64,000 bases of DNA from Desulfovibrio sp. (GCA_017528345.1 JAFXOX010000078.1:1-64000); one strand, 5' to 3'. Shown: positions 35,665-56,872, counted from the stretch's first letter. Notes: generated by a model from the sequence alone, not told the origin. Numbers and translations: made by a program.

Positions 35665-38634
35665 TCAGCGTGCCTGCGGCAACAAACGCAAGGGGGCACT
35701 CTGCGGGAAATGAAGGATAAGCTCTCCCTGGCGAAATTCGTAACCGATAATCATCTTTTGCCCATTGGCAAAGGTGGCATAGAGGGCATTGCCCTGTACC
35801 GCGAACGTACAACGGCTTTCCTGACCTGGCCTGAGCAGTCGGAGCGTATAACAGGCACTTGCGGGAACACTGCGTATCTCACAGCGTATGCCTGTCTCAG
35901 GGCTCAACCAATTGCCCTGAAAATGCTGCGGATCTCGCTGTCCACCCTCGCGTGTGAGTATGGAGGCTTCGCCCTTGCGACTCATCAGGGTAAGCTTGCC
36001 AAATCGCGGTTCAAGGTAAACCGCGTAGCTGTCTCTGGGCATACCAGTCACGTGGAGGATATGGCCCTTGAGCTCAAAACGCCCACGTCCAGTATGACCA
36101 TCACGACTCAGCTGCACACTATTCCCGCGAAATTCCCAGCGTTCTGTCTTACTTGTCCAGACCCCCTCAAGGGATGCCGGCTGATAGCGCTCAAGGGGCA
36201 CAAAGGCCCAGCGCGTGCCATTGCCCATACCGATCATATACCACGTGCGTTCCAACCCTGCGCCGTCAAGAAAGGCATACCATGTTTCAATGGTCTCACC
36301 AAAGGGCACATTGTTCATTTTCGGCTGCTTGTGCAAGGAAAGCTGCGGCATACCTGTGGGCAGCCAGTGAACAAGGCCCCTGCCCTGCTCTTTTTCGCCA
36401 TCATGAATGGCAAAGGAAAAAGCCGGGCGAGTGGCACTGAGGGTGATGGTCTGAAACGTTGGCAGAGCAAGGTTTTCTTCCCTTCCACTGGAAGCAAACT
36501 GGACCATGGCATAGGTGCCAAAGAGATTGCCCAATCCATTGGCTTGAGCATTGCTGCGCATACTGTCCTGTTCGGGCTTATGGCGCACAGGGTAGCTCTT
36601 GCTCATGGCCATGGCCGTTTTGCCGTTCATCGTCTGAGCCTGAATGAGATAGCCGACCTTACGCCCGCTATCGAGCATATCCACCGTCAGAAGAAAAACG
36701 CCGTGGGAAAGCGGCATGGGCTGACCAAAGACGCGGCGCTGCTGGCCTTGCCTGTCAATGAGAACACGGGCAGGTCTGAAGATGCCATCGGTGCGTGGCA
36801 TCATCTGTCTGATACTTGTGATCCTGCCCTGGGCGTCCAGCGTAAAACCGAGCATGGTTACAGGCATACGCAACAGATTGGAAAACTGCACCTGCACCAG
36901 AAGATCCTGACCACCTGTGGTCGCATCCCGATAGAGCCCCCAGCCCACGGAGATATTCTGCCCAATATCACGTGCTGTGGACAAATTGGTGATGGTGATA
37001 TCTTCAAGCTGTGTGCCGTTACTCACCTTGTACTTGGCCGAAAGCTCACGCATCAGGGTCGTTGTGCCGTCATTGTAGCGTGGTGAGATTTCGCTGAAAG
37101 ACGATTCTTTGCCTGTGGCCTTCTTGCTGTGATCGCCCACAAGCTGCTCAAAATTGACCATGCGCTCCTGTCCCATCTCTTCAAACTGAATAAGCTTGGT
37201 CAAAAGGATGCCTGTCCCTGTGACATCATAACGGACCACATTGTGGGCAAAGGGCTGAATGTGGTCTATGGGCAGGATGTCAAAATCTGTGGCCTCTAAG
37301 CCGTCTCGACCTTCTTTAAGCTGTGGAAGGCCAATGACCACATGGTCAATACGCGGCTTTTCATCACCCAGGGTCTCCTGAGCCATATAGAGAGCCTGCA
37401 GATAGTCGGCAAAGCCACTGACTTTGGCAAAGCTTGAATGTCGGTAGCCAGGCTGTTCAAATTCACGTCTGAGCGGCAAATACATGCTGATGCCCTGGCA
37501 TTCCGGCAGATTGGGTGTCGACTTGGCATGGTAGACAAGACGGGCAAGGGCTTCACGCAGCTCTTTGAGGAGAACGGTGTCGATACCCAGATCCTCCTGT
37601 GTCAGGCGCCCAAGCCAATCATAGACTTCCACACTGCTTGTGGCTTTCTGTCCACTTTTCAGATCTTCGAGAAGATTGCCGTGATGCGTGGCAAAACAGG
37701 TGGCCCGGGTCAAAGCCTTAAACTGTGTGGGAGCCAATTCCTTGAGCTTCTGGCTGAGACGCAGAAGCTTCACATTTACTTCGGCCATGGCCGAAAGATC
37801 ATAGGCGGAAAAGGCCGCAGGCCGTCCGAGATCCGTGTAGTAGGCGATATTCATATCCACCATGTGTGCCAATAGATCTCGCGTTGTGACATCCTTGCGA
37901 AACATGGGGAGGATAGAGAGATAATCCGAACCCTGACAGGGTTCCACCGGTGGGCTGGCAAAGGCGTAATCGGCCAGAGGCACTGTCTCATAGAGAACAT
38001 CGAGCTGTCCCATCAGGCAGAGTTCGTACTTCACAAGGTCAAAACGTTTCCGTGGCAAAAACTGAGCCCCCTGGTGCACAGCCCGGGCAAAATCTCGCAA
38101 AGACATACTGCCCTTGCCACCGTCCTCGTCGTTGAGCATGCCGGCAAGCGCGGCACCGCTGCCGTGATCCCAGGGAATCAACGCATAGCGCTTGGCCGGA
38201 AAATGCTCGGCAACGGTTCTGATAAAACGCACCAAGGTTGCCGGGTCTGCCATATCGGCTTCTCCCCAGTCTTCGAGAAGCTCTGAAGCAAAATCCTTGG
38301 GGAGCGGAACATTCAGTCCCATAGCTGCTTTTTTGATATCAAAAGGCTCGCCTCTGCGCACACGGTAGAGACGTGTTCCGCTCCAATTGCCCAGAACGTC
38401 ACTATGCGCCTTGTGACGATCAACAAGAACCACAACTTCCACGTCCTCGGGAAGCGACTGCTCCATCTCGAGCATATCCATAAGTGCCGAATGCTCGAGA
38501 TTATTGTCACCATCCAAATAGACCATGACGGTCCATTCAACAGGCTGTTTTTGAGCGCTTGCCGTTGCGCCAACGCTCACAAGAGCCAGGAGGAGAGAGA
38601 CGAGGAAAAGCAAACGGAAAAGATCTACGCGCAT
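35665..38634 (-). CDS. Clostripain (C11) family secreted cysteine protease
   Basis: An exported 989-aa protease from ATG 38634, with signal peptide (about residues 1-27). The N-terminal clostripain domain begins WTVMVYLDGDNNLE and has the catalytic His in PWDHGSG (H157) and Cys in YELCLMGQLD (C206), spaced as expected. After about 420 residues an unassigned middle region follows, and at the C-terminus are two copies of the G-x-W beta-repeat (LEGVWTS and FQGNWLS) that also make up the neighbouring secreted proteins. C11 proteases cleave after basic residues and are often self-activated. Shares a 37-nt gap with the upstream repeat protein gene. Confidence 0.9.
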   Translation of the reverse strand: MRVDLFRLLFLVSLLLALVSVGATASAQKQPVEWTVMVYLDGDNNLEHSALMDMLEMEQSLPEDVEVVVLVDRHKAHSDVLGNWSGTRLYRVRRGEPFDIKKAAMGLNVPLPKDFASELLEDWGEADMADPATLVRFIRTVAEHFPAKRYALIPWDHGSGAALAGMLNDEDGGKGSMSLRDFARAVHQGAQFLPRKRFDLVKYELCLMGQLDVLYETVPLADYAFASPPVEPCQGSDYLSILPMFRKDVTTRDLLAHMVDMNIAYYTDLGRPAAFSAYDLSAMAEVNVKLLRLSQKLKELAPTQFKALTRATCFATHHGNLLEDLKSGQKATSSVEVYDWLGRLTQEDLGIDTVLLKELREALARLVYHAKSTPNLPECQGISMYLPLRREFEQPGYRHSSFAKVSGFADYLQALYMAQETLGDEKPRIDHVVIGLPQLKEGRDGLEATDFDILPIDHIQPFAHNVVRYDVTGTGILLTKLIQFEEMGQERMVNFEQLVGDHSKKATGKESSFSEISPRYNDGTTTLMRELSAKYKVSNGTQLEDITITNLSTARDIGQNISVGWGLYRDATTGGQDLLVQVQFSNLLRMPVTMLGFTLDAQGRITSIRQMMPRTDGIFRPARVLIDRQGQQRRVFGQPMPLSHGVFLLTVDMLDSGRKVGYLIQAQTMNGKTAMAMSKSYPVRHKPEQDSMRSNAQANGLGNLFGTYAMVQFASSGREENLALPTFQTITLSATRPAFSFAIHDGEKEQGRGLVHWLPTGMPQLSLHKQPKMNNVPFGETIETWYAFLDGAGLERTWYMIGMGNGTRWAFVPLERYQPASLEGVWTSKTERWEFRGNSVQLSRDGHTGRGRFELKGHILHVTGMPRDSYAVYLEPRFGKLTLMSRKGEASILTREGGQRDPQHFQGNWLSPETGIRCEIRSVPASACYTLRLLRPGQESRCTFAVQGNALYATFANGQKMIIGYEFRQGELILHFPQSAPLRLLPQAR

Positions 38635-38671
38635 AGTGACGCTCCTCACATTTGGCAACATCAAAAATCCC

Positions 38672-40036
38672 TTAAGAAGCACGCGTCAGTTGCAGAGCAC
38701 TGCCATTGGGGAACGTCAGAATCAGGATATTGCCCTGTATCTGCCAGGTATTGACCCCCTTCTGCCCAGCTGTCTGACCGGCCGTTGTCTGGTATTCGAG
38801 ACGTTGGCCATCAAGACGGAAAATGCCGGCCTCGCTCTGCTGACCATTGGCCAGAACCATGTACTGGTTGCCCTTGAACACAAAAACCATTTGCACACCA
38901 TTGGGCAACTGAGCTGACCAGGCACCCTCAAGAGCGGAAACAGCCTGGCTTGGCCTCGCCGATTCCGGACTCGCTGGTCCCCAGGGGACATTGGGACCGT
39001 TTGAGGACTGCGGAGCAGGCTGTGGCATGGGCTGCGGTGCAGGCTGTGGCATGGGCTGCGGTGCAGGCTGTGGCATGGGCTGCGGTGCAGGCTGTGGCAT
39101 GGGCTGCGGTGCAGGCTGTGGCATGGGCTGACGCTGTAAAACAGTACCATCAGAAAAGCGCAGGGTATTTCCTTCAATGGTAAAGGTGATATCCATGACC
39201 TTGCCATTGGAAAATTGCACATGGAGTTGATTGCCCCGCACGACATAGGGACCATAGACCTGCTGACCATTGAAGTTCAAAGCACAGATGCCGTTCATGA
39301 AAGCCATGACAAGCATCTGCCGGCCATCATTGGCAGCCCAGAAACCTTCAAGAGAACCTGCCTGAGCAGGGCTGGTGGGAAAGGATGCCGTACTCTGCGG
39401 CATATCACCCTTGCGCATAAGTCGCGATCCGTCAGAAAGCACAAGCATGCGCCCCTGAATACTGTAGATCAAACGACACTTCTGCCCGTTGGAGAACATC
39501 AGCAGCAGTTCCTGTCCCCGAGCCTGCCAACGTCCATTGATTTTCCGGCCATTGGCCTCAAGAACGCAGGTACCAGATGGATCAAAAGACAACTGTAAAT
39601 TGTTCGCACCCCAGCTGCCAATCAAGGGGTTCTGGGCAGTGGCGCTGGCTTCAGGTCCCGCATAGAAAGGCGGAAATCCATCCATGCTGCCAAAGGAGGA
39701 AATGCCGCCGAGAGGCAGCTGGCCATCTTCCAAGCCACCCATGCTCGTAACAGGCATGCCAATACCAGGCAGATTCATCACTGGTGGTTGACTGCCGCCC
39801 TGACCTTGTAGCAAGTCTGGGCTCACAGATTTTCCCAAAAGGCCGGTTCCTTCTGGAATCAGCGCCTGAGCTGCATGATCCTTGGATGAGACAAGACCCC
39901 CAAGCGAAAGACCGAGGACCGAGGTCTCATGCTGATCCTGTAAGACTTGTGCAGCCTCTGCGGCAAAACCCGATGAAGTCGAAAAAAGAGACATACAAAG
40001 GACAAAACAAGCCATTGACCGAAAAACACGTGGCAT
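38672..40036 (-). CDS. Secreted beta-repeat protein with Pro/Gln linker
   Basis: A 454-aa exported protein: signal peptide 1-25, a Gly-rich N-terminal stretch, three G-x-W beta-repeat domains (IGSWGAN, LEGFWAA, LEGAWSA) each with a NG-x-x-x-x-G core and F-x-N/S-G-x-x-L end, and between the second and third a linker made of five PMPQPAPQ units coded by a 24-bp tandem repeat. It is the first gene before the clostripain gene (ribosome binding site AAGGAGG before ATG 40036) and is probably co-transcribed with it. Possible substrate, partner or surface platform of the protease. Confidence 0.7.
   Translation of the reverse strand: MPRVFRSMACFVLCMSLFSTSSGFAAEAAQVLQDQHETSVLGLSLGGLVSSKDHAAQALIPEGTGLLGKSVSPDLLQGQGGSQPPVMNLPGIGMPVTSMGGLEDGQLPLGGISSFGSMDGFPPFYAGPEASATAQNPLIGSWGANNLQLSFDPSGTCVLEANGRKINGRWQARGQELLLMFSNGQKCRLIYSIQGRMLVLSDGSRLMRKGDMPQSTASFPTSPAQAGSLEGFWAANDGRQMLVMAFMNGICALNFNGQQVYGPYVVRGNQLHVQFSNGKVMDITFTIEGNTLRFSDGTVLQRQPMPQPAPQPMPQPAPQPMPQPAPQPMPQPAPQPMPQPAPQSSNGPNVPWGPASPESARPSQAVSALEGAWSAQLPNGVQMVFVFKGNQYMVLANGQQSEAGIFRLDGQRLEYQTTAGQTAGQKGVNTWQIQGNILILTFPNGSALQLTRAS
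39015..39130. repeat. 24-bp tandem repeat, about 4.8 copies
   Basis: Units begin at 39015, 39039, 39063, 39087 and 39111 (last one partial) and are nearly identical, starting GCAGGCTGTGGC. They code in frame for the PMPQPAPQ linker. Copy-number change would alter linker length by 8 residues without a frameshift. Confidence 0.9.
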
Positions 40037-40641: not shown

Positions 40642-40666
40642 AGACGCGGTAGAGACGGACATTACT
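40642..40666. repeat. 25-bp direct repeat, copy 1
   Basis: Begins AGACGCGGTAGAGACGG and ends ATTACT. An identical copy lies at 41016-41040. The two copies flank the Rpn fragment. Confidence 0.85.
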
Positions 40667-40720
40667 GGCCGCCCCCCGCACAGAATCCGGACGTGCAGAT
40701 TTCCCGCATCCGGCTCTTCA
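40667..40720 (-). other. Group II intron-like RNA motif (remnant)
   Basis: Read on the minus strand this has GAGCCGGATGCGGG, a short loop, then GCACGTCCGG and CTGTGCGGGGGGCGG. Such a GAGCCG..CGTCCGG hairpin followed by a G-run is familiar from bacterial group II introns near the maturase gene. No reverse transcriptase remains nearby, so this is at most a fragment; the assignment is from memory of the pattern. Confidence 0.4.
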
Positions 40721-41047: not shown

Positions 41048-42748
41048 CTAGGCGTTCTTGCGCACCCCTTTCTCATTGCAACACAGGCCCGCCACAATGT
41101 CATCAAGTTCTTGTGCGACGTTTTTCCGTGACCTTTCTTGCCTGTCCCATGTATATGCATTGGCATGCTCACGCGATTCTGCATGCGTGCCATGAGCGCT
41201 ATCAGCCTTTGCTTGGTTGCCCAAGGCTTTTTCTGTGCTTTTTCCATACGCAGTCTTCCCGACGGCTCTCGCGCTTGCATTGTCATCATCACGCAATGGC
41301 CTCTGTTCCGGCAAAAGCCTTGGCCCCTCAGCCTGCCGACGCTTTTGCTGAATCTCCCTCATGGTCTTTTGCGGCTCACAGCGCGCATCCTGCTCGCAAA
41401 GTTCAGTATCTCCTAGCCCTGCAGTCGGCAGAAAGCACTGAGCCTCCCCAAAGCAGATCTCTCGGTCAAGAGCCTCCAGGGCTTCTTCTGCAACTGCCTC
41501 GCACGCACAATCACATGTTTCTTCCCGAGATGCCGATGGTGTTTTCTGGCGACAATCTCTTTCAGACGGCTTTGTCCCCATCTCTCCAGGCTCATCCCCC
41601 AAGAAAGGCTGTGCACGCTGCTCTTCTGTGTCCGGCACAGTCCAAAGAGCCACAATAGCCCGACTGGAGGCCATTTGGCCAAGATCCCTGCGACGTAAAA
41701 TTCGCTCAAGAGCCTCAAAAAGTCGCCTCGTCTTTTGCTCTTCCGACGCTTCTCGCTCTTGCGGGCATGGACTTTTGCGTATTTCCTCTTCAGCACTTGC
41801 CACGCACCCCGTACGCGCAAAAGGCCTCATCTCGGCATTTTCCCAACCTTCCGTCCCGGCTGCAGGTTCCGCAGTGTCGCTCTTCGCCCTCGCTTCCCGT
41901 ATGCCTCTCTTCACAAAGGCCTCAAGCAAATGTTTCACACAGCCAACGTCGGCCAGAAGATAGTCAAGATTGGGTTGTGCCAACGCCAACTGATAGTTCA
42001 GACGCACACTCTGGTGCGCAGCCAGGGGAGGATTGGCAAAAAACGTATAGCCCCGGATAATGTCACCGCGAAAGGCGATGGTCACCTGTCCTTCTACCTG
42101 TCTTTGCAGATCCCTGAAATCCACTCTCTGCATGCTCTCGGCATGGACGGAGAGATTGTCCTGATAGGCAGAGGACTGTCTGAGGTTTACAGAATAGCCT
42201 GAACTTTTGAGCACAAAACCTTTACCGGCCAGCTTCTGGGCAAGATCTGTGGTCTGCCTGGGGTCTTCTGTGGCCATAAAGAGCTTGACCTTGCAGTTGG
42301 AGATAATCTGCTCAGCCGCCCCTTCCGAAGACCTGCGAATCCCCGCAAAATCCTGACTTGCCACGACAACACTCATACCAAGACCTCTGCCCTGGGTCAG
42401 TAAAATCTCAAAGCCCGGCGTTTCAATGGCTGCGTACTCATCGACAATGATCCCGAAGGGAACCTTGCTTTCCGTGGGAAGCGCCTGTAAGACCTCAGCC
42501 AAAGTTCCCTGCACCGTATCGCCAAGACCTACGGCACAGGCATTGCGCACCTGTGCCAGGCAAATCTGCCCAAGGCTTTTTAATTCCTTGGGATCCTTAT
42601 CCATGGAGGGAATGAGGCTGACAAAGATACGGCGATTGGTGATGACATCTATGGCATCCACCTCGCCAAGCTGTGGCCCAAAAATGCGACCATAGTTATC
42701 CACAAAAAAGGGAGGAAGACGGGAAGCGGATTTGCCGACGCGGATCTC
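41048..42748 (-). pseudogene. dotL: N-terminally truncated DotL/IcmO (TrbC-type) coupling protein
   Basis: Coupling ATPases of I-type systems feed DNA or protein to the channel. Only the C-terminal part is left, about 565 aa. It is recognised by FFVDNYGRIFG, NRRIFVSLIPSMDKDPKEL, the Walker B-like IIVDEYAAIET, and GRGLGMSVVVASQDFAGI. The first several hundred residues, including the membrane helices and Walker A, are absent: coding similarity starts near 42748 (EIRVGKSAS) and a stop lies at 42770-42772 in AT-rich DNA. A GTG at 42703 could start a shorter product. After residue ~260 the protein is a charged, Glu/Lys/Arg-rich tail, as DotL tails often are. Its I-type partners lie 35 kb away at 3.15-8.24 kb. 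Confidence 0.8.
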
Positions 42749-43525: not shown

Positions 43526-43568
43526 GCTGGTCTTACACAGCTGATTTGACACTCCCAAAGGAGTTTTC

Positions 43569-43577
43569 ATGGTGTAA
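43569..43577 (+). other. Two-codon minigene (ATG GTG TAA) with strong ribosome binding site
   Basis: AAAGGAG (43557-43563) is followed after 5 nt by ATG GTG TAA. It lies at the 5' side of the rep leader, upstream of the antisense RNA target. Such a site would load ribosomes that stop at once; it may be the start of a leader-peptide control device or a leftover. Confidence 0.4.
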
Positions 43578-43612
43578 CTGGTTCGAACAGCCTAACAATC
43601 TTGGAATTAGGC

Positions 43613-43689
43613 AAAAAAAAAGCCGCGCTTTGAATTGCACTTCAAAGCACGGTATAGCTCTCAGAGAGCAAGAGTCTGTAAGCTCTTCA
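43613..43689 (-). ncRNA. Candidate antisense copy-number RNA (about 77 nt)
   Basis: Predicted minus-strand RNA running from about 43689 to the T tract at 43613. It ends in a strong intrinsic terminator: arms 43641-43652 and 43623-43634 pair over 12 bp (one G-U), followed by a short GC step and nine T. On the plus strand the same position is a C-A mismatch, so the structure favours the minus-strand RNA. Its promoter is at 43696-43723. It is fully complementary to the leader of the replication gene starting at 43771, the layout of IncI- and IncFII-type copy control. Confidence 0.65.
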
Positions 43690-43695
43690 GACCCT

Positions 43696-43723
43696 TGTAT
43701 CTCAGCACTTGTCCGGCTGTCAA
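43696..43723 (-). promoter_or_regulatory. Promoter of the antisense RNA
   Basis: On the minus strand TTGACA (43723-43718) is a perfect -35 box, separated by 16 bp from GATACA (43701-43696). Initiation would fall about 7 nt further, near 43689. Confidence 0.6.
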
Positions 43724-43770
43724 GCACGGAGGGCACTTTTTTTGTCTTTTTCTGCTCCAGGGGTAATACC

Positions 43771-46122
43771 GTGGCAGAGATGCAAAATATTTTGCCCCCA
43801 TCCAAGTTCTTCTTTTCCATTCATGACCGACAGGACTGCAGCAGATGGACACAGTTTGACCGTGAACTCAAAAGCGGTCCTGCCGCAACCTATGCCGTAC
43901 TTTTCAAGGCCGCCTATCACACAGGCAAGGTCTCTCTCTCCCTCCGTGATCTTTCCGCACAGTGTCACGGTCTCTCCACACGCACCATCCAGAATCACAC
44001 AGCTTTCCTGAAGAAGCTCAACTTCATCGGCATCACACGCATCTCCAATCAGGTTAATACCTATTCCCTGATCCTGTCTCCACGCGTTGCCGGTCTCATC
44101 GACTACGCCAATATCCCCATCAATCCCGGTTTCCCCGATTACCTTGCAGACGAAGAGCGCAGTCTTACCGAGCAGTGTGCCCGTGAAGCCTTCCCCGACG
44201 ACTATCAGGATTGTGATGCTTCGGAAAAGGCACGTGAAAGCTATGAGATTCCTGAAGCAAGCGGAAAAAATTGCGTCAACGAAGAAAACCAGACGGCGGG
44301 CAAAATAGAAAAGCCGCGTTCAACACGCAAAAAGAACGGAAAGCCGCTTACCATGCGGCAATTAGGCATGCCCATGACGAAAAATTTTCGTCATGACGAC
44401 GAAAAAAATGCGTCGCCTGCAAAGTGCTCTGCGAACACGAAAAAATTTCGTCATGATGACGAAAAAATTGCGCATCCATCATCTATAGCAAAGAAGAAAA
44501 CAGAAGACACCCCCCAAAGCCCCCCAGACGCATGGGAACCCTGGCAGTCAGGTGTCTGTGAGATCGACGAAAGGCATGGGGGGGGGGGCGCTTACGCTTC
44601 CCGGAAAAAGGCAAAGCAAGAAGGCTCTGTGATCTCTGAGAGCAATGCGTGGGCTTCTGAGACTCAGCCTTCAAAGGCTGTGAAGAGAAATGCCAATGCT
44701 CAACAAAGCGCAAATACTTATAGCAAGAGCTGCAACACTGGCCAACGCAGTCAGGCAGCTTGTTCACACCATGGGGAAAGCAACGGTTGCGTCGTAAGCG
44801 TTGCGAACTTCGGAGGCGCTTTGCTGATCTCCCTTCCCTTCACACTCCCTCAGGGGGATGTGCAGCTGATCACACAGGGGTATCCCTTGCCGTATCTCAC
44901 CACTCAGGCCGTTTTCGCCTTCAGGGCAGAAAATTGCGCCTCTGTCCACGGGGATGGCCCTGTGAGTATCCAGATCCTGCAGGATGCCGTTGGCTCTCAG
45001 GCTCAGAAATCCGCTCAGAAGCCTGTGGCGGCACACGTTTTGCCGGAAACTCAGGCAAGCACGAATACGCCAAAACAATCGGCACATGGTTCTGCAGCAG
45101 CAAAGCCAAATGTTGGAACTTTTCAAAGCGGCACGGCAAGCCAGACTTGTCAGACAGGTCAGGCTTCAGCTTCCGGCACAAGTGTTCCGTTAAAAGCTCA
45201 TGAAGCCAGGGGCGCAAATGGAGCGCAACAGGCTCAGACAAAGACTGCCTCCAATGCTCCGAAAGTTTTACCGCCTCGTCCCAGAGGTATCTCCGAACGC
45301 ATCTGGTACGAAATGGCGACGAAAATTTCCGACAATGAGCGTCGTGATGATTTTGCAGCTCTTTGGCTTCGTTATCCCAAAAAGTCAAATATCATTCAGG
45401 CTATCAGAGCATGGAAACAGCAGCTGCAGTCTCAGGATATTCCTTCCATAGAAATCATTTTTGCTGATATCTCAGAACTTGAAAAAAATAACTTTACTTG
45501 GCGAATAACGTCTGATCGTGGAGATCGTCGTTTCATGCCAAGCTTAGATCAGTTTATTCTGTATAAGTCATGGCTGGACAACAATAATGATAAAGCACCA
45601 GAAGAAGTCTCTCAGATTACCTATATCTCAGAACGTGATGTGCAATGTCAGGCACAGAAGCCTCAGATGACCAAAAACACAAATACACTTGCTCATTATA
45701 CAGAAATATTTACGCCTTTCTGCGAATCATTGTCCAAACGGGAAATCTGCACGGCCATATCTCTTTCGGCAACCATAGACAAGCCTTTCAGCATTGCCAT
45801 GCAGACTGATGAAGAACTGACAAATGCGCTTTCAGCGCACGGAACCTTCGCTACAGTCAGGGAGCTGTCCGCTTTCTGCAACAGTATCGTTCAGCGCAAC
45901 AGAGCCAGTATCAGCGCAGCAGAACTGCTCATCGCAAGCTGCCCTTTTGCTGCCGACACCATGACACTTGCAAGACTTCTTCAGTCCATGACGGACGAAA
46001 GCGTGCTCAGAATGAACCAGGAAAACCTTGCTGCCTGTCTTGAAAAGAACAAGCCCAGCTTTGCTGCTCCTGAAGAGCTTGCAAACTGGGTTCGCGAAGC
46101 GGAACTGAAGATGGCGGTTTAG
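43771..46122 (+). CDS. Replication initiator-type protein with winged helix and long linker
   Basis: About 783 aa. Near the N-terminus FDRELKSGPAATYAVLFKAAYHTG, then SLRDLSAQCHGLSTRTIQNHTAFLKKLNF is a winged-helix domain like those of plasmid and phage initiators. Residues ~150-520 are low-complexity (Ser, Ala, Gln, Lys), and the C-terminal 280 residues form a second folded part starting near ISERIWYEMATKI. Start is GTG 43771 (or ATG 43780); a frame open back to 43546 is only leader DNA, since an antisense RNA and minigene lie there. Start region has a weak ribosome binding site and a 14-bp palindrome, as in translation-controlled rep genes. Its linker DNA carries origin-like repeats. Exact family not recognised. 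Confidence 0.65.
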   Translation: MAEMQNILPPSKFFFSIHDRQDCSRWTQFDRELKSGPAATYAVLFKAAYHTGKVSLSLRDLSAQCHGLSTRTIQNHTAFLKKLNFIGITRISNQVNTYSLILSPRVAGLIDYANIPINPGFPDYLADEERSLTEQCAREAFPDDYQDCDASEKARESYEIPEASGKNCVNEENQTAGKIEKPRSTRKKNGKPLTMRQLGMPMTKNFRHDDEKNASPAKCSANTKKFRHDDEKIAHPSSIAKKKTEDTPQSPPDAWEPWQSGVCEIDERHGGGGAYASRKKAKQEGSVISESNAWASETQPSKAVKRNANAQQSANTYSKSCNTGQRSQAACSHHGESNGCVVSVANFGGALLISLPFTLPQGDVQLITQGYPLPYLTTQAVFAFRAENCASVHGDGPVSIQILQDAVGSQAQKSAQKPVAAHVLPETQASTNTPKQSAHGSAAAKPNVGTFQSGTASQTCQTGQASASGTSVPLKAHEARGANGAQQAQTKTASNAPKVLPPRPRGISERIWYEMATKISDNERRDDFAALWLRYPKKSNIIQAIRAWKQQLQSQDIPSIEIIFADISELEKNNFTWRITSDRGDRRFMPSLDQFILYKSWLDNNNDKAPEEVSQITYISERDVQCQAQKPQMTKNTNTLAHYTEIFTPFCESLSKREICTAISLSATIDKPFSIAMQTDEELTNALSAHGTFATVRELSAFCNSIVQRNRASISAAELLIASCPFAADTMTLARLLQSMTDESVLRMNQENLAACLEKNKPSFAAPEELANWVREAELKMAV
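43782..43795 (+). promoter_or_regulatory. Palindrome at the start of the replication gene
   Basis: GCAAAATATTTTGC is a perfect 14-bp palindrome overlapping the third base of ATG 43780. UGCAA (43781-43785) is also complementary to the loop UUGCA (43635-43639) of the first leader hairpin, so the two could pair as a pseudoknot. Confidence 0.45.
44373..44412. repeat. Palindromic origin-like repeat A inside rep
   Basis: CATGACGAAAA (44373-44383) and its exact inverse (44385-44395) form 11-bp arms around one base; another GACGAAAA follows at 44397-44404. The 36-bp unit starting 44377 recurs at 44437 with 33 of 36 matches, exactly 60 bp later. Confidence 0.75.
44437..44472. repeat. Palindromic origin-like repeat B inside rep
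   Basis: Second copy of the unit with GACGAAAA/TTTTCGTC elements. Surrounded by A-rich sequence. A further GACGAAAA occurs near 45314 in the same gene. Confidence 0.75.
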
Positions 46123-46162: not shown

Positions 46163-47164
46163 ATGCTTTCACGCAATCCCGAAGTCCGGGAACGCTTCAT
46201 CCGACAGATCTCCAGCAATGCGGGAGATGCCGTGCTCCAGGCTCTCAGTGAGCCGGGAACCATTGAGGTCATGCTCAATCCCGACGGACACCTCTGGCAC
46301 GAAAAGCTCGGCAAAGACATCTGCGAGATCATGCGGAGAAACCCTGACGGAAGTCTTTCTCCGGCTACCATGACCTCTGCTCAGGCTGCCGGCATGATCA
46401 AGGTGATCGCAAGCTATCTTGACAAGACCGTCACCGCCGAAAACCCGATTCTCGACAATGCCGAGTTTCCCCTCGACGGCAGCCGTTTTTCGGCAGCCTT
46501 GCCGCCGGTTGTGAGTAATCCCACCTTCTGCATCCGTCGTCGACCCGAACGCATCTACCCCCTCGACGACTACGTGAAAGACGGGATCATGTCCCCCAGA
46601 CAGCGAGATCTCATCTGCCGGGCAGTCTCTGAACGCAAGAACATCGTTGTCATCGGCTCAACCTCAAGCGGCAAGACGACCCTGACCAACGCCATCATCA
46701 ACGAGATCGTCAGACAGTTTCCGCTCGACCGTGTCTTCATCTTCGAAGATACCGCTGAAATTCAGTGTGAAGGCAAAAACGCTCTTTTTTTTCACACAAG
46801 CCAGAACGTCGGACTGATCCATCTGCTCAAGCTTGCTCTGCGAATGCGCCCCGACCGCATCTGTGTCGGTGAGGTGCGTGACCACGCAGCCCTTGATCTC
46901 TGCGACTGCTGGAATACGGGACACCCCGGCGGCATCTGCACCATCCACGCCGATGACGCAACCAGAGGTCTTATGCGCCTGTGCTCAATGATCTCAAGGC
47001 ATCCCAATAAGCCCGGCAATATTCAGGAGATTGTCGCTGATGCTGTGAATATTGTCATTTTTATTCGCAAGACTCCTGATCACGGGCGCAAAATTGAAGA
47101 AATTCTTGAAGTTGATCGCTGGGACAGCAAAGAAGTCCGCTTCAGAGGGCGGCGGCTGAACTGA
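46163..47164 (+). CDS. trbB: TrbB/VirB11-type conjugation ATPase
   Basis: Hexameric traffic ATPase at the base of the transfer channel. The 333-aa protein is the usual size for P-type TrbB. Features in order: N-terminal domain with EVMLNPDGHLWHEKLG, Walker A IGSTSSGKTTL near residue 164, an Asp box FIFEDTAEIQ, Walker B-like RICVGEVRDHAAL and a His box GHPGGICTIHAD. Starts 40 nt after the initiator gene and heads the transfer gene run. Confidence 0.9.
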   Translation: MLSRNPEVRERFIRQISSNAGDAVLQALSEPGTIEVMLNPDGHLWHEKLGKDICEIMRRNPDGSLSPATMTSAQAAGMIKVIASYLDKTVTAENPILDNAEFPLDGSRFSAALPPVVSNPTFCIRRRPERIYPLDDYVKDGIMSPRQRDLICRAVSERKNIVVIGSTSSGKTTLTNAIINEIVRQFPLDRVFIFEDTAEIQCEGKNALFFHTSQNVGLIHLLKLALRMRPDRICVGEVRDHAALDLCDCWNTGHPGGICTIHADDATRGLMRLCSMISRHPNKPGNIQEIVADAVNIVIFIRKTPDHGRKIEEILEVDRWDSKEVRFRGRRLN

Positions 47165-47173
47165 GGTGGCACG

Positions 47174-47521
47174 GTGGCAAAACTCATTGACATACACAGG
47201 AACGATCCGAGCAAGGATGCTGACAATGCGTCCGAAAACCTGAGCCGCGCCGTTACCGAAGCCAATGCTCTCTATGTTCTCACACGAAAGATGACGCAAG
47301 GCCTGGCCAGAAACAATGATTTTGAAAAATACAGGGCTATCGAAGATGTGCTTTCCACACTTGAAATCAAGGAATCTGAGATCGCAGACAGATCTCTTTC
47401 GGTTTCCGGTCTTTCCGGAAACAGAGACTCCGATATCTGCGAGATGTGGGAAATGCTCACCTTCGTCGGTTTTCAGTGCACACTTTTGCTTCTGAAAACC
47501 ATGCATGCTGAAAAAAACTGA
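47174..47521 (+). CDS. Unknown 115-aa protein in the trb operon
   Basis: Starts 10 nt after trbB. A soluble helical protein with no signal peptide; charged N-terminal half, C-terminal WEMLTFVGFQCTLLLLKTM. Similar in size and general pattern to the next gene (helices, then a hydrophobic LLGYISCECFGM-like end), so the two may be distant paralogues. No family recognised. Translation probably coupled with trbB. Confidence 0.65.
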   Translation: MAKLIDIHRNDPSKDADNASENLSRAVTEANALYVLTRKMTQGLARNNDFEKYRAIEDVLSTLEIKESEIADRSLSVSGLSGNRDSDICEMWEMLTFVGFQCTLLLLKTMHAEKN

Positions 47522-47601
47522 CCCTGTCAGTCATAACGCCGGTCATTCCTGATCTTGGAGAGGATCAGCCATGACCATATTACCGGACAACGGAGGAAAC
47601 C

Positions 47602-47940
47602 ATGTCAGAAATCCACGACACCCAAAACCATGAATGTCTGGCCATTGATCGCCCCTATCTGCTCTATTCGCTGCAGAGAGTGGAAAATATCCTGAACTAC
47701 ACAGGAAACGTCATCGACAGACGCGGAAGTAAATCAAACAGTGATTCCCGTGAACGACTCAATGAACTGAGAAATGTGATGGGTGTCGTGCGCAAAACGT
47801 GCGATTCATCCAGTCAAGATCTCAACCACGATGAAATTCTCAATTTCTTCGTGCTGCTCGGCTACATCTCATGCGAGTGCTTCGGCATGGTCAGGCCTGA
47901 TCATTACAGAAAAGTCAGGGAAGCAGAGAGCGTTGCCTGA
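47602..47940 (+). CDS. Unknown 112-aa protein in the trb operon
   Basis: Preceded by GGAGG at good spacing before ATG 47602. A soluble, helical protein with the segments YLLYSLQRVENILNY and ILNFFVLLGYISCECFG. No motif known to me. In the 80-nt gap before it there is a small hairpin (GATC-containing arms around 47549-47567). Operon position suggests an accessory transfer role. Confidence 0.65.
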   Translation: MSEIHDTQNHECLAIDRPYLLYSLQRVENILNYTGNVIDRRGSKSNSDSRERLNELRNVMGVVRKTCDSSSQDLNHDEILNFFVLLGYISCECFGMVRPDHYRKVREAESVA

Positions 47941-47949
47941 AGGCCTGAT

Positions 47950-48273
47950 ATGGAAAGCTACAGAAATCCCCTGCAGTTCATCTTTTTCGGGGCTGGAACC
48001 GAACTTGCGCTTTTCTGCCTTTCAGCACTGCTCTGCCGGCAGCTTCTGCTGATCAAAGGGCAGTCCGAACCTGTGCTGATTCTGCTTATGGCATTTCTTG
48101 TCGTGCGCACGGCAAAACTGTTCGTTAACTTCATTGATCCCGATTTTTATTCGGCTCTCAGGAAAAAGGAGATGAGTTCAGGCTTCTGCGTACTTTCCCT
48201 TGTCACGGCAATTATCCTTGCCTTCATTCTCGCAAAATATCTCATACCTGTCGGCTTTGTTGCCGCAAACTGA
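47950..48273 (+). CDS. Small membrane protein before trbC
   Basis: A 107-aa protein with three hydrophobic segments (about residues 15-35, 40-60 and 78-100) and a charged loop FIDPDFYSALRKKEMSS. It lies 9 nt after the preceding gene and 31 nt before the pilin gene. Not recognised. Likely an inner-membrane accessory of the transfer channel. Confidence 0.65.
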   Translation: MESYRNPLQFIFFGAGTELALFCLSALLCRQLLLIKGQSEPVLILLMAFLVVRTAKLFVNFIDPDFYSALRKKEMSSGFCVLSLVTAIILAFILAKYLIPVGFVAAN

Positions 48274-48304
48274 TTAGTACCCCGAACCTCCAAGGAGATT
48301 TTTC

Positions 48305-48658
48305 ATGACCAAAGGAACTTTTGTGCTGCTTCTCTTTGTCTGCACATGTGTGGTTCTGTCAGCCACAGATGTGCTGGCAAGCGATGGCACAGGCGGCATG
48401 CCCTTCGACGATGTACTCACGAAAATCAAACAGTCTGTCACCGGTCGTTTTGCCACAGTTGCATCTTTGATCGGTATTGTGGCAGCCGGCGCGACCCTGA
48501 TCTTCGGCGGCGATCTGAACGGCTTCTTCAGAAGCATGCTCTTTGTCGTCATGGTTGTGGCCATAATCATTCTTGCCAATAACCTTCTGACCGCCGTCGG
48601 TTCCAGTGCTCTTGTGACACCTGATATGTCTCAGGGTGCTGCCATCGGCACAAAATAG
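48305..48658 (+). CDS. trbC: VirB2/TrbC-type conjugative pilin
   Basis: A 117-aa precursor with a signal peptide (about 1-25, cleavage after VLA) and two long hydrophobic helices separated by the short turn GGDLNGFFRS, the hallmark layout of VirB2/TrbC pilins. The pre-helical part DDVLTKIKQSVTGRFA also fits. Preceded by AAGGAG. Followed directly by trbD and trbE in the canonical order. Confidence 0.85.
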   Translation: MTKGTFVLLLFVCTCVVLSATDVLASDGTGGMPFDDVLTKIKQSVTGRFATVASLIGIVAAGATLIFGGDLNGFFRSMLFVVMVVAIIILANNLLTAVGSSALVTPDMSQGAAIGTK

Positions 48659-48679
48659 TTCATGGGGGAAGGAGCAGTC

Positions 48680-48979
48680 ATGGCTCTCAGAACCATTCCG
48701 TTTCATCGCAGCCTCACCCGAGACAATCTGTTCATGGGGGGAGACCGAGAGCTTGTGATGTTCGTCGGCCTCTGCTCCTTTGCCCTGGTTTTCACGGCAC
48801 TTTCGTTTATCGCGTTTGTATACGGTCTCTTCCTGTGGCTCATCTGCCTCTACTTTCTTCGGAAGATGGCCAAATCTGACCCGAAAATGCGCGACGTCTA
48901 TATCAGACACATTAAGTACGCAGCCTGGTATCCGGCCAAATCAAGTCCGCTCAGAGAAAACAAAAAGGATTACCAATGA
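48680..48979 (+). CDS. trbD: VirB3/TrbD-type channel protein
   Basis: About 99 aa. ATG 48680 follows AAGGAG; an earlier ATG at 48662 overlaps that site. Segments IPFHRSLTRDNLFMGGDREL and two adjacent transmembrane helices are characteristic of TrbD/VirB3, which assists the VirB4 ATPase at the inner membrane. Its stop overlaps the ATG of trbE (ATGA). Confidence 0.85.
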   Translation: MALRTIPFHRSLTRDNLFMGGDRELVMFVGLCSFALVFTALSFIAFVYGLFLWLICLYFLRKMAKSDPKMRDVYIRHIKYAAWYPAKSSPLRENKKDYQ

Positions 48980-51546
48980 TACGGTCGCTTGAAGGCTATC
49001 TGATCATTCTCTTCTGCGTGATCGCTGTCGTGGGCTTTCTGCTTCTGCTCATGATCTACCTCAGACTCCGTGAAACGGAAAAGTCTCTGCGGATCAGGAA
49101 GGCCTCCAAGGCAGCAGGTGTCGTTGATCTTCTGAACTACGGAGCCATGGTCGAAGACGGGATCATCGCCTGTAAGAACGGTGCCCTGATGGCTGCCTGG
49201 TATTACACGGGTGACGACAACGCAAGCCGAACCGACGCCGAAAAGGAGCGTGTTTCTGCCATTATCAACGGTGCTTTGGCCGGTCTTGGCGACGGCTGGA
49301 TGGTTCATGTGGATGCCGTCCGTCGTGAGACGCCAAAATATATTCCGGCAGAACTCTCCCACTTCCCTGATCCCGTGACTCGCGCCATCGACGAGGAACG
49401 GCGCAACTATTTCGAAAATCGGGGAACGCTCTTTGAAGGCTATTTCATTCTGACCGTCACCTGGCTTCCGCCGCTTATCGCCGAGCAGCGGTTTGTCCAA
49501 CTGATGTTTGACGATGATTCTGCTCCACGCACAAAGTCAGAATTTTTTCAGGAACTCCTCAATACCTTCAAGCGCGAAATTGAAACTCTGGAAAGCCGCC
49601 TTTCTGCCATCTTTCGACTCGACAGACTTCGCAGCACAGTTCGGGAAGATGTCGACGGTACAACACACAGATACGACCATTTTCTTGAGCATCTCCAGTT
49701 CTGCATCACTGGCATTCGCCAGCCCGTGATGCTCCCTAAATCTCCTGTCTGCCTGGATGCCCTGCTCTGCGGTCAGGAACTCTGGGGAGGTGTCATTCCG
49801 AAAATCGGTGACAAATATATCGGCTGCGTCGGCATCGAGGGCTATCCCGTGGAAAGCTATCCGGGCATGCTCGCGATTCTTACTGATCTCGACATCGAAT
49901 ACCGCTGGAGCAACCGCTTTATCTTTCTGGATCCTCACACGGCATGCGCCCACATGGAAAAATACCAGAAGAAATGGAAGCAGAAGCAGCGCGGCATCAT
50001 CGCTCAGGTGCTCAATAACACCAACGCCAATGTGGATCAGGACGCGGTGAACATGACCGAGGACGCTGAAGAAGCCATCAGCGAAATCAAAAGCGGTCTG
50101 ATCGGAGCTGGCTACTACACAAGCGTACTCGTGCTCATGCACGAAAACCGTTCACATCTTGAGGACATGTGCCGCAAGCTTCAGAAGACCATCTTCAACC
50201 TTGGCTTTGCTGCACGCATTGAGTCCATCAACTGCATTGAGGCCTGGCTTGGCTCCTTGCCGGGCCATGGCCACGAGAACGTAAGACGGCCTCTTGTTTC
50301 AACCATGAACCTTGCGGATCTTTTGCCTTCAAGCTCCATCTGGACCGGCGAAGACCGTGCACCATGTCCGTTTTATCCGCCGTCAAGCCCGGCTCTCATG
50401 TACTGTGTGACGACAGGTTATTCCCCGTTCAGGCTCAATCTTCACACACGCGACCTTGGCCACTCGCTGCTCTTCGGGCCTACAGGCTCGGGTAAATCAG
50501 TCGCCCTTGGCATCATGGTCGCACAGTTCATGCGCTATAACGGCACAGTCTACGTTTTTGACAAAGGCATGAGCATGTACGCGCTGACATGCGCAACAGG
50601 CGGCGACCATTTTGAAATTGCCGGTGACGAATCAAAGCTGAACTTCTGTCCGCTCCAGTTTCTTGAAACAACGTCTGATCAGGCCTGGGCACAGGACTGG
50701 ATCGAGACTCTGATCAACCTGAACCACAAGGAGATGGCCGTTACTCCCGGCCAGCGCAAGGAAATCGGCGAAGCCATCACACTCATGCACCAGAACGGCG
50801 GCAAGACCATCACCGATTTTCTCGCCTACGTTCAGGATCGTGAGATCCGTGAAGTGCTCGAAGCCTATTCCATTAACGGTAAAATGGGCAGTCTTCTTGA
50901 CGCCGACGAAGATGGTCTCTCGCTCAGAGAATCAGGCATCACCTGCTTTGAAATGGAAGAGGTCATGAATCTTGGCGAACGCTGGGCACTTCCCATTCTC
51001 CTCTACCTTTTCAGACGCATTGAAAAATCATTCCACGGGCAACCCGGTCTCATCGTTCTCGACGAAGCCTGGCTTCTGCTCTCGCACCCGGTCTTCGAAA
51101 GCAAGATCAAGGAATGGCTCAAGGTCATGCGCAAGGCCAATGTCGCCGTCGTCATGGCCACACAGTCTCTGTCCGATGCCGAACGCAGCGACATCTTCGA
51201 CGTCATCATCGAAAGTGCCGCAACCAAGATCTTTCTGCCCAATGTCTACGCCAGAGGCACAGCTGCTGAATCCTACAAACGTATGGGGCTTAATGAGCAA
51301 CAACGGGAAATCATATCAGATGCCATACCCAAGCGCGAATATTACCTTGTGAGCGAAAGAGGAAGTCGACTTTTCTCCTTTGCGTTAGGTCCTCTGACCC
51401 TTGCCTTCATCGGCGCAAGCGACAAGGACAGCGTCGCCAAAATCAAGGAACTCCAGAAAATCTACGGGGATACCTGGGTTGTTGAATGGCTGAAAATCAA
51501 GGGAATATACAATGCTCCTGAAGAATCTCAAAAAAATGCCGCCTGA
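48976..51546 (+). CDS. trbE: TrbE/VirB4-type conjugation ATPase
   Basis: Large ATPase of the transfer channel, 856 aa, the size typical of TrbE. An N-terminal membrane segment (about 5-28) precedes a CagE/TrbE/VirB family N-domain and a C-terminal RecA-like domain with Walker A LFGPTGSGKSVALG (near 502), FDKGMSMYALT, Walker B LIVLDEAWLLL, and VVMATQSLSDAERSDIF. Overlaps trbD by 4 nt. The operon is broken after it by a 166-nt spacer that contains a 10-bp tandem repeat array. Confidence 0.93.
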   Translation: MIRSLEGYLIILFCVIAVVGFLLLLMIYLRLRETEKSLRIRKASKAAGVVDLLNYGAMVEDGIIACKNGALMAAWYYTGDDNASRTDAEKERVSAIINGALAGLGDGWMVHVDAVRRETPKYIPAELSHFPDPVTRAIDEERRNYFENRGTLFEGYFILTVTWLPPLIAEQRFVQLMFDDDSAPRTKSEFFQELLNTFKREIETLESRLSAIFRLDRLRSTVREDVDGTTHRYDHFLEHLQFCITGIRQPVMLPKSPVCLDALLCGQELWGGVIPKIGDKYIGCVGIEGYPVESYPGMLAILTDLDIEYRWSNRFIFLDPHTACAHMEKYQKKWKQKQRGIIAQVLNNTNANVDQDAVNMTEDAEEAISEIKSGLIGAGYYTSVLVLMHENRSHLEDMCRKLQKTIFNLGFAARIESINCIEAWLGSLPGHGHENVRRPLVSTMNLADLLPSSSIWTGEDRAPCPFYPPSSPALMYCVTTGYSPFRLNLHTRDLGHSLLFGPTGSGKSVALGIMVAQFMRYNGTVYVFDKGMSMYALTCATGGDHFEIAGDESKLNFCPLQFLETTSDQAWAQDWIETLINLNHKEMAVTPGQRKEIGEAITLMHQNGGKTITDFLAYVQDREIREVLEAYSINGKMGSLLDADEDGLSLRESGITCFEMEEVMNLGERWALPILLYLFRRIEKSFHGQPGLIVLDEAWLLLSHPVFESKIKEWLKVMRKANVAVVMATQSLSDAERSDIFDVIIESAATKIFLPNVYARGTAAESYKRMGLNEQQREIISDAIPKREYYLVSERGSRLFSFALGPLTLAFIGASDKDSVAKIKELQKIYGDTWVVEWLKIKGIYNAPEESQKNAA

Positions 51547-51576
51547 CCATTTTGAAAAATAACAATGTACAAAGTC

Positions 51577-51626
51577 TGTACTCAGTTGTATTCGACTATA
51601 CTCAAGTATACTTAATTATACTTTTT
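51577..51626. repeat. Five tandem 10-bp repeats upstream of trbF
   Basis: Units start at 51577, 51587, 51597, 51607 and 51617 with consensus TRTAYTYAAK (units 3-5 begin TATACT). The period equals one helical turn, so a protein could bind in line along one face. A TTGACA box follows at 51632-51637, suggesting a promoter for trbF and the pil genes under control of this array. Confidence 0.7.
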
Positions 51627-51712
51627 GCCTGTTGACACCATACTATTTTTATGACATTGCATACAATAGCTGAAATATATAGTCATGTTATTCATGCCAT
51701 AAGGACTAAAAG

Positions 51713-52432
51713 ATGAGCGATAAACTGGTAATGCCGGAAGCGCGTCCTGATAAGGGAAAAACAAAAAATGAAAAATTTCACCCATGGGTCAATGCCCGTC
51801 AGGAATGGAACGCCCATGAGGGCTATGTTGTCGCAAGCAAACGCCGCTGGCAGATCGTGGGACTCTTCTTCGGTTTTCTGGCGCTCTCGGCCATTGCCGG
51901 TGTGATCTACATCGGCAGCCAAAGCAAGTTCATTCCTTATGTCGTGACAGTGGACAGTCTTGGTCAGGCCGTTGCCGTCAAACGCGCCGACATCATGGCT
52001 CCTGTTGACAAGCGTGTGATCATGGCAACGCTTGCCAGTTTCATCAATGATCTGCGCATTGTGACACCGGACATCATTGTTCAGAAAAATGCCGTTCTCA
52101 ATATTTACGCTTATTTCAACAGCACCGATCCGGCAACACGTAAGACCAACGAATTTTTTGCCAATAAGGAAATAAATCCTTTTAAACGTGCAGAAACTGA
52201 AACCGTCAATGTGAACATCACCTCGGTCATTCAGCAGAGCCAGGAAACCTGGCAGGTTTTCTGGACTGAGGAAGTTCGTGACCGAAAAGGCAGAATCAAG
52301 GCTAAACCTAAATTCCGTGCCAATATCAATATCTATGTCATGCCACCGTCAACTTCCAGAACAGATGACGACATTCAGAAAAATCCCCTGGGCATTATTA
52401 TCAAGGATTATTTCATAGCTTCTCAGCTGTAA
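51713..52432 (+). CDS. trbF: TrbF/VirB8-type channel protein
   Basis: Inner-membrane channel subunit of 239 aa. A cytoplasmic N-terminus (PWVNARQEWNAHEGYVVASKRRW) precedes one transmembrane helix (about 46-66) and a periplasmic NTF2-like domain opening with SKFIPYVVTVDSLGQAV, the TrbF signature, and containing WQVFWTEEVRDRKG. First gene after the spacer with 10-bp repeats. Confidence 0.9.
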   Translation: MSDKLVMPEARPDKGKTKNEKFHPWVNARQEWNAHEGYVVASKRRWQIVGLFFGFLALSAIAGVIYIGSQSKFIPYVVTVDSLGQAVAVKRADIMAPVDKRVIMATLASFINDLRIVTPDIIVQKNAVLNIYAYFNSTDPATRKTNEFFANKEINPFKRAETETVNVNITSVIQQSQETWQVFWTEEVRDRKGRIKAKPKFRANINIYVMPPSTSRTDDDIQKNPLGIIIKDYFIASQL

Positions 52433-52476
52433 GACACTTCAAAGATATTAACTATTCAGATCAAAGGCAAAATTTC

Positions 52477-54000: not shown

Positions 54001-54008
54001 GGACAAAG

Positions 54009-55508: not shown

Positions 55509-55528
55509 TTCATTCCAAGGACCGGCTC

Positions 55529-56872
55529 ATGGAACTTACAGAAATCAACGGAAAAAAATGGTGCGTCGGCTTTCGCTGGACGGAATCTCGCAGCGCACGC
55601 GAGTATTCCCATAAGAAGCTTCAGGAGGATGCCGGGGAGAAATACGACTGCTTCACAACCCGAAAGGGGCGTGTCGGCACACAGTACGGCTTTGCCATGA
55701 TCGGGCACAAATACAGCGAGTATGTGCAGTCCTTTGCGCTGGTGACAGCCCTTAAGGAACTGGAAACCGTGACTCCGGACAACAGCATCATTGATTCCAA
55801 TGTGTTCCTGGGTCTCTTCAAGCTCGTCAATACGAACGGGGATGAATTCTGGTGGATTCACGCACGCATCAACGGCGAAGTGCCGTTGATCGGAGACTCT
55901 GTCTACTATTCTCAGGAAGATGCCTTCAAGAAGCTTGCGCTCCTTGAAAAAATGACAGGCCTTTCCAAAGGCCTCTGCGTCCATCTCGAAGATCCGACGG
56001 AAAGTGCTGAATATCTCGCCCGTTTCATCAGATATGACTTCAGGGACAAATATCTGACCTCTGCCGGCAGTATCTCAAGAATCAATCAGTACATTTCTCG
56101 CGGCATGATCATCAAGGCTGCGGCTGCAGCAGTTCTCGGTCTCATTATTCTTGCGGCCTTCACCGTTCCCAAACAGATACAGCAGTATCTGGCAACGCTG
56201 ACCTATTCAGAGGCCAAAAAACAGGAATTCAGGCAGCTCCAGGAAGCCAGACAACACCCCGAAAAACTCTTCACAATGACCTGGCAGACGGCACTGCTTC
56301 CGGCTGACACGTCATACGTCTGTCTCCGGGAAATGATGACCATTCCCCTCGTCAGCAACGGCTGGGAGTTTGAAAACGCAAGCTGTGACGGCTCAAAGAT
56401 CAATATTTCCTGGCGCTTCACCGATGTGGCCAATTTTCTCAACCTTCCGGAAAACGCCGTGCTCAATACGCGTGATCTGAAAACCGCAACAAGCACAAAA
56501 GCCATCAAGCTTGATCCGTCCGAAAGAACACCACGAGCTGACGGCCCCGGAACAAAATACACCATGCTCCACAAGAGCAATGAGATCATTGCCATGATGA
56601 GCGACCTAACTCAGCACACCTCAAGTCTGCTCAAACCCATTCGCTTTGATCATCCTGAAACGAGAACGCTCCTTGATCAGAAGATCACGTGTCCCTGGAG
56701 TAAGGGAACATGGGAGCTGACACAGATTCCTGATCTGCTCATGTACAGCGTGAAAGACGGAACAAGCCTCTTTGACATGGTCTCCAAAATTCCCGGCATC
56801 ACGCTGAACAACATCACTTTTAACGTCGGCCATGGCTGGACCATCAAGGGAAATATCTATGTCAAACAGTGA
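55529..56872 (+). CDS. pilO: PilO-type pilus assembly protein
   Basis: Inner-membrane protein of the pilus alignment complex, 447 aa. N-terminal cytoplasmic part with GKKWCVGFRWTES and DEFWWIHARINGEVPLIGD, a transmembrane helix around residues 191-212, then a periplasmic coiled coil and a globular end. These features and gene order match PilO of IncI (pilO2 family). Overlaps pilP. Confidence 0.85.
   Translation: MELTEINGKKWCVGFRWTESRSAREYSHKKLQEDAGEKYDCFTTRKGRVGTQYGFAMIGHKYSEYVQSFALVTALKELETVTPDNSIIDSNVFLGLFKLVNTNGDEFWWIHARINGEVPLIGDSVYYSQEDAFKKLALLEKMTGLSKGLCVHLEDPTESAEYLARFIRYDFRDKYLTSAGSISRINQYISRGMIIKAAAAAVLGLIILAAFTVPKQIQQYLATLTYSEAKKQEFRQLQEARQHPEKLFTMTWQTALLPADTSYVCLREMMTIPLVSNGWEFENASCDGSKINISWRFTDVANFLNLPENAVLNTRDLKTATSTKAIKLDPSERTPRADGPGTKYTMLHKSNEIIAMMSDLTQHTSSLLKPIRFDHPETRTLLDQKITCPWSKGTWELTQIPDLLMYSVKDGTSLFDMVSKIPGITLNNITFNVGHGWTIKGNIYVKQ

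Follow-up and report, generated by a model that had tools for sequence, protein, structure and literature searches.

A conserved antisense-RNA control region predicted in the leader of a replication-type gene family of Desulfovibrio mobile elements

The staphylococcal plasmid pSK41 has an antisense RNA of ~83 nucleotides (nt) with two stems opposite the leader of its replication (rep) gene, ~100 nt upstream of the start, for which hiding of the ribosome-binding site has been proposed, and pT181 combines antisense control with a pre-emptor pairing (PMC5703833). The subject here is a stretch of 64,000 nt from Desulfovibrio sp. (GCA_017528345.1 JAFXOX010000078.1:1-64000), termed the window, in which the leader of a gene for a 783-amino acid (aa) replication-type protein holds a minus-strand promoter, a predicted antisense RNA and an intrinsic terminator, an arrangement that recurs in front of related genes in Desulfovibrionaceae. 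The region is read, at a probability of roughly 0.8, as an antisense-RNA expression switch for an initiator that would head the conjugation cluster of a mobile element in a gut Desulfovibrio; it would govern replication and probably also transfer. By analogy, the closest known plan is that of pSK41, and of pT181 with its pre-emptor. As in pSK41, a two-stem antisense RNA of ~80 nt is predicted upstream of the ribosome-binding site, and the nearest solved folds of one relative (L037) are those of RepA_N initiator N-domains, at weak E-values. The two differ in host (staphylococci versus Desulfovibrionaceae), their antisense RNAs have no sequence relation, and the loci described here have two conserved long-range helices (P1 and P2), a GUCAA hairpin, copies of the ribosome-binding site, frequently a hammerhead ribozyme upstream, and another C-terminal protein domain. 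The kind of control is already known; the family, with its leader fold, ribosome-binding-site copies and hammerhead association, appears to be new, and the open literature searched holds no description of replication control in Desulfovibrio plasmids or integrative elements.

The minus-strand unit of the window and the hairpins beneath it are as follows.
43718-43723, minus strand: -35 box TTGACA of the antisense promoter, read from the sequence; its plus-strand copy is the loop (UGUCAA) of hairpin H3
43696-43701, minus strand: -10 box GATACA, read from the sequence, extended (TGA ahead) with a 16-base pair (bp) spacer; relatives have stronger boxes (TAnnnT at 17 bp)
43613-43690, minus strand: predicted antisense RNA, ~77 nt, with two hairpins and a small third (43657-43669)
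43623-43652, minus strand: H1, the 12-bp terminator hairpin of the antisense RNA (43623-43634 with 43641-43652, loop 43635-43640), followed by nine T (43621-43613)
43669-43697, no strand assigned: H2, a 10-pair hairpin with loop 43679-43687, under the 5' end of the antisense RNA

An earlier sequence-only reading of the stretch had described this promoter, an RNA of ~77 nt ending in a 12-bp stem and nine T, one stem pair that is G-U on the minus strand only, and the placement of all three parts inside the leader of a replication-type gene, and it proves accurate on each count. The promoter is confirmed base by base, although a simple consensus promoter scan does not list it; the H1 terminator is the sole terminator found by a terminator scan in 500 bp; and the minus-only G-U pair is C43626/A43649, with a second one, A43673/C43693, in the upstream hairpin H2. 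Both the antisense RNA (z -3.5, 0/200) and the sense leader (z -4.2, 0/200) fold better than their shuffles. The argument against chance from the window alone is modest, and relatives are therefore needed.

The window protein alone has no match in PLSDB (E 0.01) or in the GTDB contig collection, and weak matches are found in 14 of 149 related genomes, mostly to proteins of 340-470 aa, so that relatives within the genus form the bridge to the family. A profile, A2, made from 12 of these proteins matches the N-terminal part of the window protein at 9.2e-15 and the C-terminal part at 7.6e-11, and its search returns some 50 full-length members in the class. About 65 relatives are recovered in Desulfovibrionaceae, the named ones belonging to Desulfovibrio, Mailhella and other members of the family, mostly from metagenome-assembled genomes; single-protein scans of viral contigs give one close relative. 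The promoter-terminator unit, counted as TTGAC and a TA-hexamer at 16-18-bp spacing, 30-75 nt before the rep ATG and followed by a terminator, is present on the minus strand in 60 of the 65 leaders and in 36 of the 37 non-redundant ones (sharing at most 85% identity), compared with 2 of 413 control regions upstream of other open reading frames (ORFs) at these loci; one of the two positive controls probably represents the rep gene. Almost every relative has its TTGAC between -42 and -66 relative to the rep ATG, and the predicted antisense RNA is 58-80 nt long in most. Across the family, the H1 stem contains 28 antisense-only G-U pairs (A.C mismatches in the sense strand) against 3 sense-only ones; H1 thus tolerates antisense-only pairs, and both strands are therefore under selection. 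The bias is reversed in H2 (22 sense to 10 antisense); H1 is thus kept as an antisense hairpin and H2 mainly as a sense one, two strands giving two RNAs. The predicted unit in the window is thus not a chance arrangement, and the antisense-RNA control region predicted for this rep-type gene family is a real, conserved feature.

The sense strand of the same leader is itself structured in the window by the following elements.
43600-43619, plus strand: A-arm of long-range helix P1 (43600-43605 pairs with 43756-43761, 43610-43619 with 43737-43746), in both the minimum free energy and centroid folds; helix 1 of the family
43737-43761, plus strand: U-arm of P1, family consensus TTTGYCTTTTTTC, directly upstream of the rep start and overlapping AGGGG at 43759-43763
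43657-43662, plus strand: 5' strand of P2, GCUCUC, pairing with GAGGGC at 43729-43734
43729-43734, plus strand: 3' strand of P2, GAGGGC, from the own-versus-swapped test
43713-43729, plus strand: H3, the UGUCAA-loop hairpin, whose stem differs among relatives
43557-43577, plus strand: AAAGGAG TTTTC ATG GTG TAA, a possible two-codon leader ORF with a strong ribosome site, upstream of P1; role putative

Folded singly, most of the 37 leaders adopt one common plan, and the window leader's own fold contains P1; the 5' strand of P2 competes there with a local GCUCU/AGAGC hairpin. Covariation of the stems among homologues is found in two alignments. In a sequence-only alignment of 20 leaders, 85% of the cells are paired compared with at most 50% when slid, and the covariation score is 0.417 versus 0.211 after shuffling (0/500). 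In a model-made alignment of 35 leaders, which leans to the covariance model R1, 31 of 35 pairs show double-sided change, and the score of 0.487 exceeds those obtained after shuffling (0.171) and sliding (at most 0.116). R1 comprises 20 leaders (group 2 with L012 and L073; L numbers denote relatives) and was built without the window; its hit to the window leader spans 43601-43769 and scores 20 bits (E 0.0038 for 201 kb, 1.5e-5 for 801 nt). The alignment-free comparison of own with swapped partners over 37 leaders gives the strongest signal for P2 (z -6.0, p<=2e-5), the helix between the H1-H2 linker and the element just 3' of the GUCAA hairpin, and a weaker one for P1 (z -2.9, p 0.002). Across the full set of leaders, pairing of the U-arm with the Shine-Dalgarno sequence does not reach significance (z -1.3, p 0.09), and a universal switch of that kind is therefore not claimed. 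Matches of the window leader to curated Rfam families are at chance level. The rep start may be ATG 43780, which aligns with the relatives, or GTG 43771, which has the better-spaced AGGGG; both are possible. Short leader ORFs, putative counterparts of the rep-coupled leader peptide of I-complex control, can be made out on visual inspection near the corresponding position of some relatives and are inconsistent across the family.

The sequence-only reading had placed the locus with IncI/IncB rep genes, in which the loop of the terminator hairpin would form an activating pseudoknot with the rep start and the antisense RNA would block it. The match it rested on exists, loop UUGCA (43635-43639) being complementary to UGCAA (43781-43785), and the element also has IncI-like pilus and shufflon genes. 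However, UGCAA overlaps the start codon (ATG 43780), so that pairing would hide it, UGCA is self-complementary, so that a 5-nt match is cheap, and the loop of a relative is no more complementary to its own start region than to those of other relatives (z -0.3); such a pseudoknot is very improbable here. A conserved form of it was tried as a candidate and rejected, the covarying long-range pairing being P2, within the helix of A-arm and U-arm. The likeness to RNAI of the I-complex (IncI/IncB/IncK) is confined to a small antisense stem-loop RNA in the rep leader and to loop differences among copies; RNAI has one main hairpin where two are predicted here, and neither a conserved loop-to-start pseudoknot nor, in the plasmid collection, rep homology is detected.

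The competing long-range pairing is also what would be expected of transcription attenuation as in pT181 and pIP501, where binding of the antisense RNA would permit termination ahead of rep, at H3 and the U-arm. These systems share with the present one the antisense RNA in the leader and the pre-emptor-like pairing, and almost all relatives have a U-rich tract behind H3. That tract is, however, in many relatives interrupted by GYC and parted from H3 by GGGGGCT or TCTGCT, and the terminator scan detects no intrinsic sense-strand terminator in the window leader, which renders attenuation rather unlikely.

Another feature of the family is that the rep ribosome-binding site recurs in the stretch of the leader that serves as template for the 5' part of the antisense RNA, clearly so in about 16-17 of the 37 relatives. 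The repeats include AAGTAAGGACGGTC (L012), AAAACAAAAGGAC (L073), CTATAAAGGAAA (L090), AACAGGATGTTG (L093) and AAGGCACCGAA (L094), and in L095 a 22-nt stretch that takes in the start codon has 20 identical positions. In L052, L055, L056 and L082 the repeat GGAG(CG/TA/TG)ATC varies in step at both places, and over the leaders own exceeds swapped similarity with z ~11, compared with z -0.8 for an upstream control. In these relatives, about half of the total, the predicted antisense RNA would thus be complementary to the ribosome-binding site itself and could bind it directly, which would be an unusual antisense design. An alternative reading takes the repeat as a decoy, that is, a pre-emptor. Outside the class, the antisense template of L139, L140 and L141 contains a repeat of the start region, as with AGGAAATAAATGC in L140.

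The proposed switch would operate as follows. The minus-strand promoter in the rep leader would give the ~77-nt RNA, ended by the intrinsic terminator, in an amount proportional to the copies of the element. In the leader of the rep mRNA, comparison shows a conserved fold in which P1 and P2 close on H1, H2 and H3 and which ends beside the ribosome-binding site; the antisense RNA would pair with H1, the linker and H2 of the nascent transcript, break P1 and P2 and thereby reduce access to that site, which in about half of the relatives it might also block directly. Rep, and probably the co-transcribed genes, would be made only at low copy. When the antisense-covered stretch is blocked in silico, access to the ribosome site goes down in 13 of the 37 leaders and up in 3 (p 0.005). 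A different use of the same structure would be as a DNA or RNA element of a replication origin (primer or initiator-binding), the minus RNA being a primer or by-product. Replication-origin RNAs can be antisense-transcribed, and the structure adjoins the rep gene; the nine-T intrinsic terminator, a leader ending at the ribosome site, the copies of that site and the RNA-strand-specific wobbles point to mRNA control instead, and an origin element is considered improbable.

Several observations weigh against the proposed switch. The -10 box GATACA is weak, agreeing with TATAAT at 3 of 6 positions only; the in silico block leaves ribosome-site access in the window unchanged (0.34 and 0.34); and the window, like the rest of the 37 leaders beyond the 16-17 named above, shows no clear copy of the ribosome-binding site (p 0.04 for this weak subset; window rank 0.22, not significant). 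The R1 score of the window leader is modest and not significant genome-wide (E 0.054), similar scores occurring by chance elsewhere in the genome, so that position and the other evidence carry its assignment. The window protein is strongly diverged, with 17-25% identity to relatives in A8. Identical leaders (L044 and L004) are present in one fragmented assembly, which is unexpected under strict incompatibility. The antisense RNA is predicted from sequence comparison.

The product of the downstream gene has the architecture below.
43771-46122, plus strand: replication-type gene, with an N-terminal winged helix, a long disordered middle and a C-terminal YPKK..W domain (A2 profile and structure model)

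Its size of 783 aa is due to the disordered middle, the predicted local distance difference test score (pLDDT) of the structure model being <50 over most of residues 141 to 491. Relatives score E 1e-8 to 5.5e-35 against PHROG 270 'replication initiation protein', to which the window protein is tied through the family profile only; they also match PHROG 9474 and 9327 (replication/primosomal) and Pfam HTH_36 (PF13730), a domain carried by the hybrid initiator pPR9 (PMC5703833). In the predicted fold of relative L037 the four best solved structures are RepA_N plasmid initiators (4pql, 4pt7, 5kbj; E 1.1e-3 to 3.5e-3), and the top matches of the window protein's model are generic winged helices only. 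Pfam RepA_N has no match among the window protein or its relatives, and no rep homology is detected in the plasmid collection PLSDB. A replication role is thus likely but inferred. Both the covariation among homologues and the comparison with rep profiles, checks that the sequence-only reading had proposed, come out positive and support what it had supposed, a replication-type gene of an uncatalogued replicon with an antisense RNA in its leader.

Where neighbours were examined, the rep gene of the relatives heads conjugation clusters. L106 has rep followed by DotH/IcmK-like and TrbI-like genes, and L105 has the same DotH/IcmK-like gene; L108 has rep with ParA-like, VirB11-like and TrbE-like genes, and L102 is similar with TrbE not seen. 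A tyrosine integrase lies near rep in L105 and L106. Because relatives sit in conjugation clusters, some with an integrase, the 'copy control' of the sequence-only reading may chiefly amount to regulating how rep and the conjugation genes are expressed. The position at the head of type IV secretion system (T4SS) clusters is also what a regulator of the conjugation operon would show, the RNA then controlling transfer rather than copy number, and HTH_36 occurs outside initiators too. Against this, PHROG 270, 9474 and 9327 are replication or primosome families and the nearest folds are plasmid initiators, albeit at weak E-values, so that a regulator of this kind is on balance unlikely.

Differences in the H1 loop add a further aspect to the antisense-RNA switch. 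In IncK plasmids, loop changes decide compatibility (PMC10724649). The complete, single-contig genome G078 holds three near-identical leaders (L083, L084 and L085) that differ mainly in the H1 loop; between L083 and L084, 3 of 9 loop columns differ compared with 1 of the 192 remaining columns (Fisher p 2.5e-4). The two genes concerned are 99% alike, and the L085 protein is only 57% identical. With L051 this genome carries four rep-family copies, and the closeness of L051 and L084 (<=4 kb apart) suggests tandem or nested elements. Among 37 close leader pairs, which are not independent, the loop differs twice as often (12.5% versus 6.3%). Genomes G048 and G020 hold co-resident copies with equal H1 loops, and because of these a role of the loop as compatibility determinant is only suggestive; integrated copies need not exclude one another. 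About 65 loci combine a defined, predicted antisense RNA with a leader that covaries and a loop predicted to set compatibility. For these elements, whose hosts are sulfate reducers common in the gut, control and compatibility would thereby become directly testable and could be predicted from the sequence.

Among the loci scanned, well over half have a type II hammerhead ribozyme (RF02276) on the strand of rep, usually 205-290 nt ahead of the rep ATG and farther up in L035, L036, L038, L040 and L045.
RF02276, 38-74 bits: L035 3251-3315 (minus strand); L038 580-644 (plus); L012 783-845 (plus); L055 1217-1290 (plus); L095 807-873 (plus); about 20 more loci

In many of these loci tRNA genes lie still farther upstream, and an Rfam scan finds no hammerhead in the window. 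Hammerheads of this type are reported near bacterial integrases and prophages (PMC3088659); those described here lie upstream of the leader in many relatives and differ in having a recurrent site before an antisense-controlled rep leader. This combination has no description in the open literature searched, outside of which most subscription journals fall, and would give the ribozyme a concrete context. R1 also finds leaders in the phylum beyond the class (L139, L140 and L141), with the same TTGAC and U-tract, preceding a different helix-turn-helix protein (425 aa in L140). A more tentative extension, considered somewhat doubtful, is a Desulfobacterota-wide module in which the hammerhead would trim the transcript, H2 would serve as a decoy copy of the ribosome-binding site, and the antisense RNA would bind both leader and ribosome-binding site, setting copy number or induction of an integrative and conjugative element with the H1 loop as compatibility code.

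The genes around rep and further features of the window are as follows.
46163-47164, plus strand: trbB-like ATPase, the first T4SS gene 3' of rep (TIGR02782, 361.6 bits, cut-off 304.55)
46163-64000, plus strand: conjugation region with trbB, trbC/D/E/F-like, secretin, pilP, pilus ATPase and shufflon genes; trbG/I/L/M-like genes past the window
61648-62826, plus strand: shufflon-type pilin (PF04917) with PilN/PilP-like genes, an R64-like pilus set beside the Trb-type T4SS
21410-22060, no strand assigned: ParA-like gene
23378-31427, minus strand: Wadjet-like defence operon (1494-aa SMC-sized protein without Pfam match, DUF6063, 559-aa protein, JetD_C protein)
35665-38682, minus strand: protein of 1005 aa containing a clostripain-like domain (TIGR02806, 2.5e-13, under the cut-off)
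40644-40718, minus strand: end of a group II intron (RF00029, 42.5 bits), close downstream of a TraG-like gene at 41048-42703

The 79-kb contig from which the window is taken has no end overlap. The Wadjet-like operon and the conjugation genes are located on one contig.

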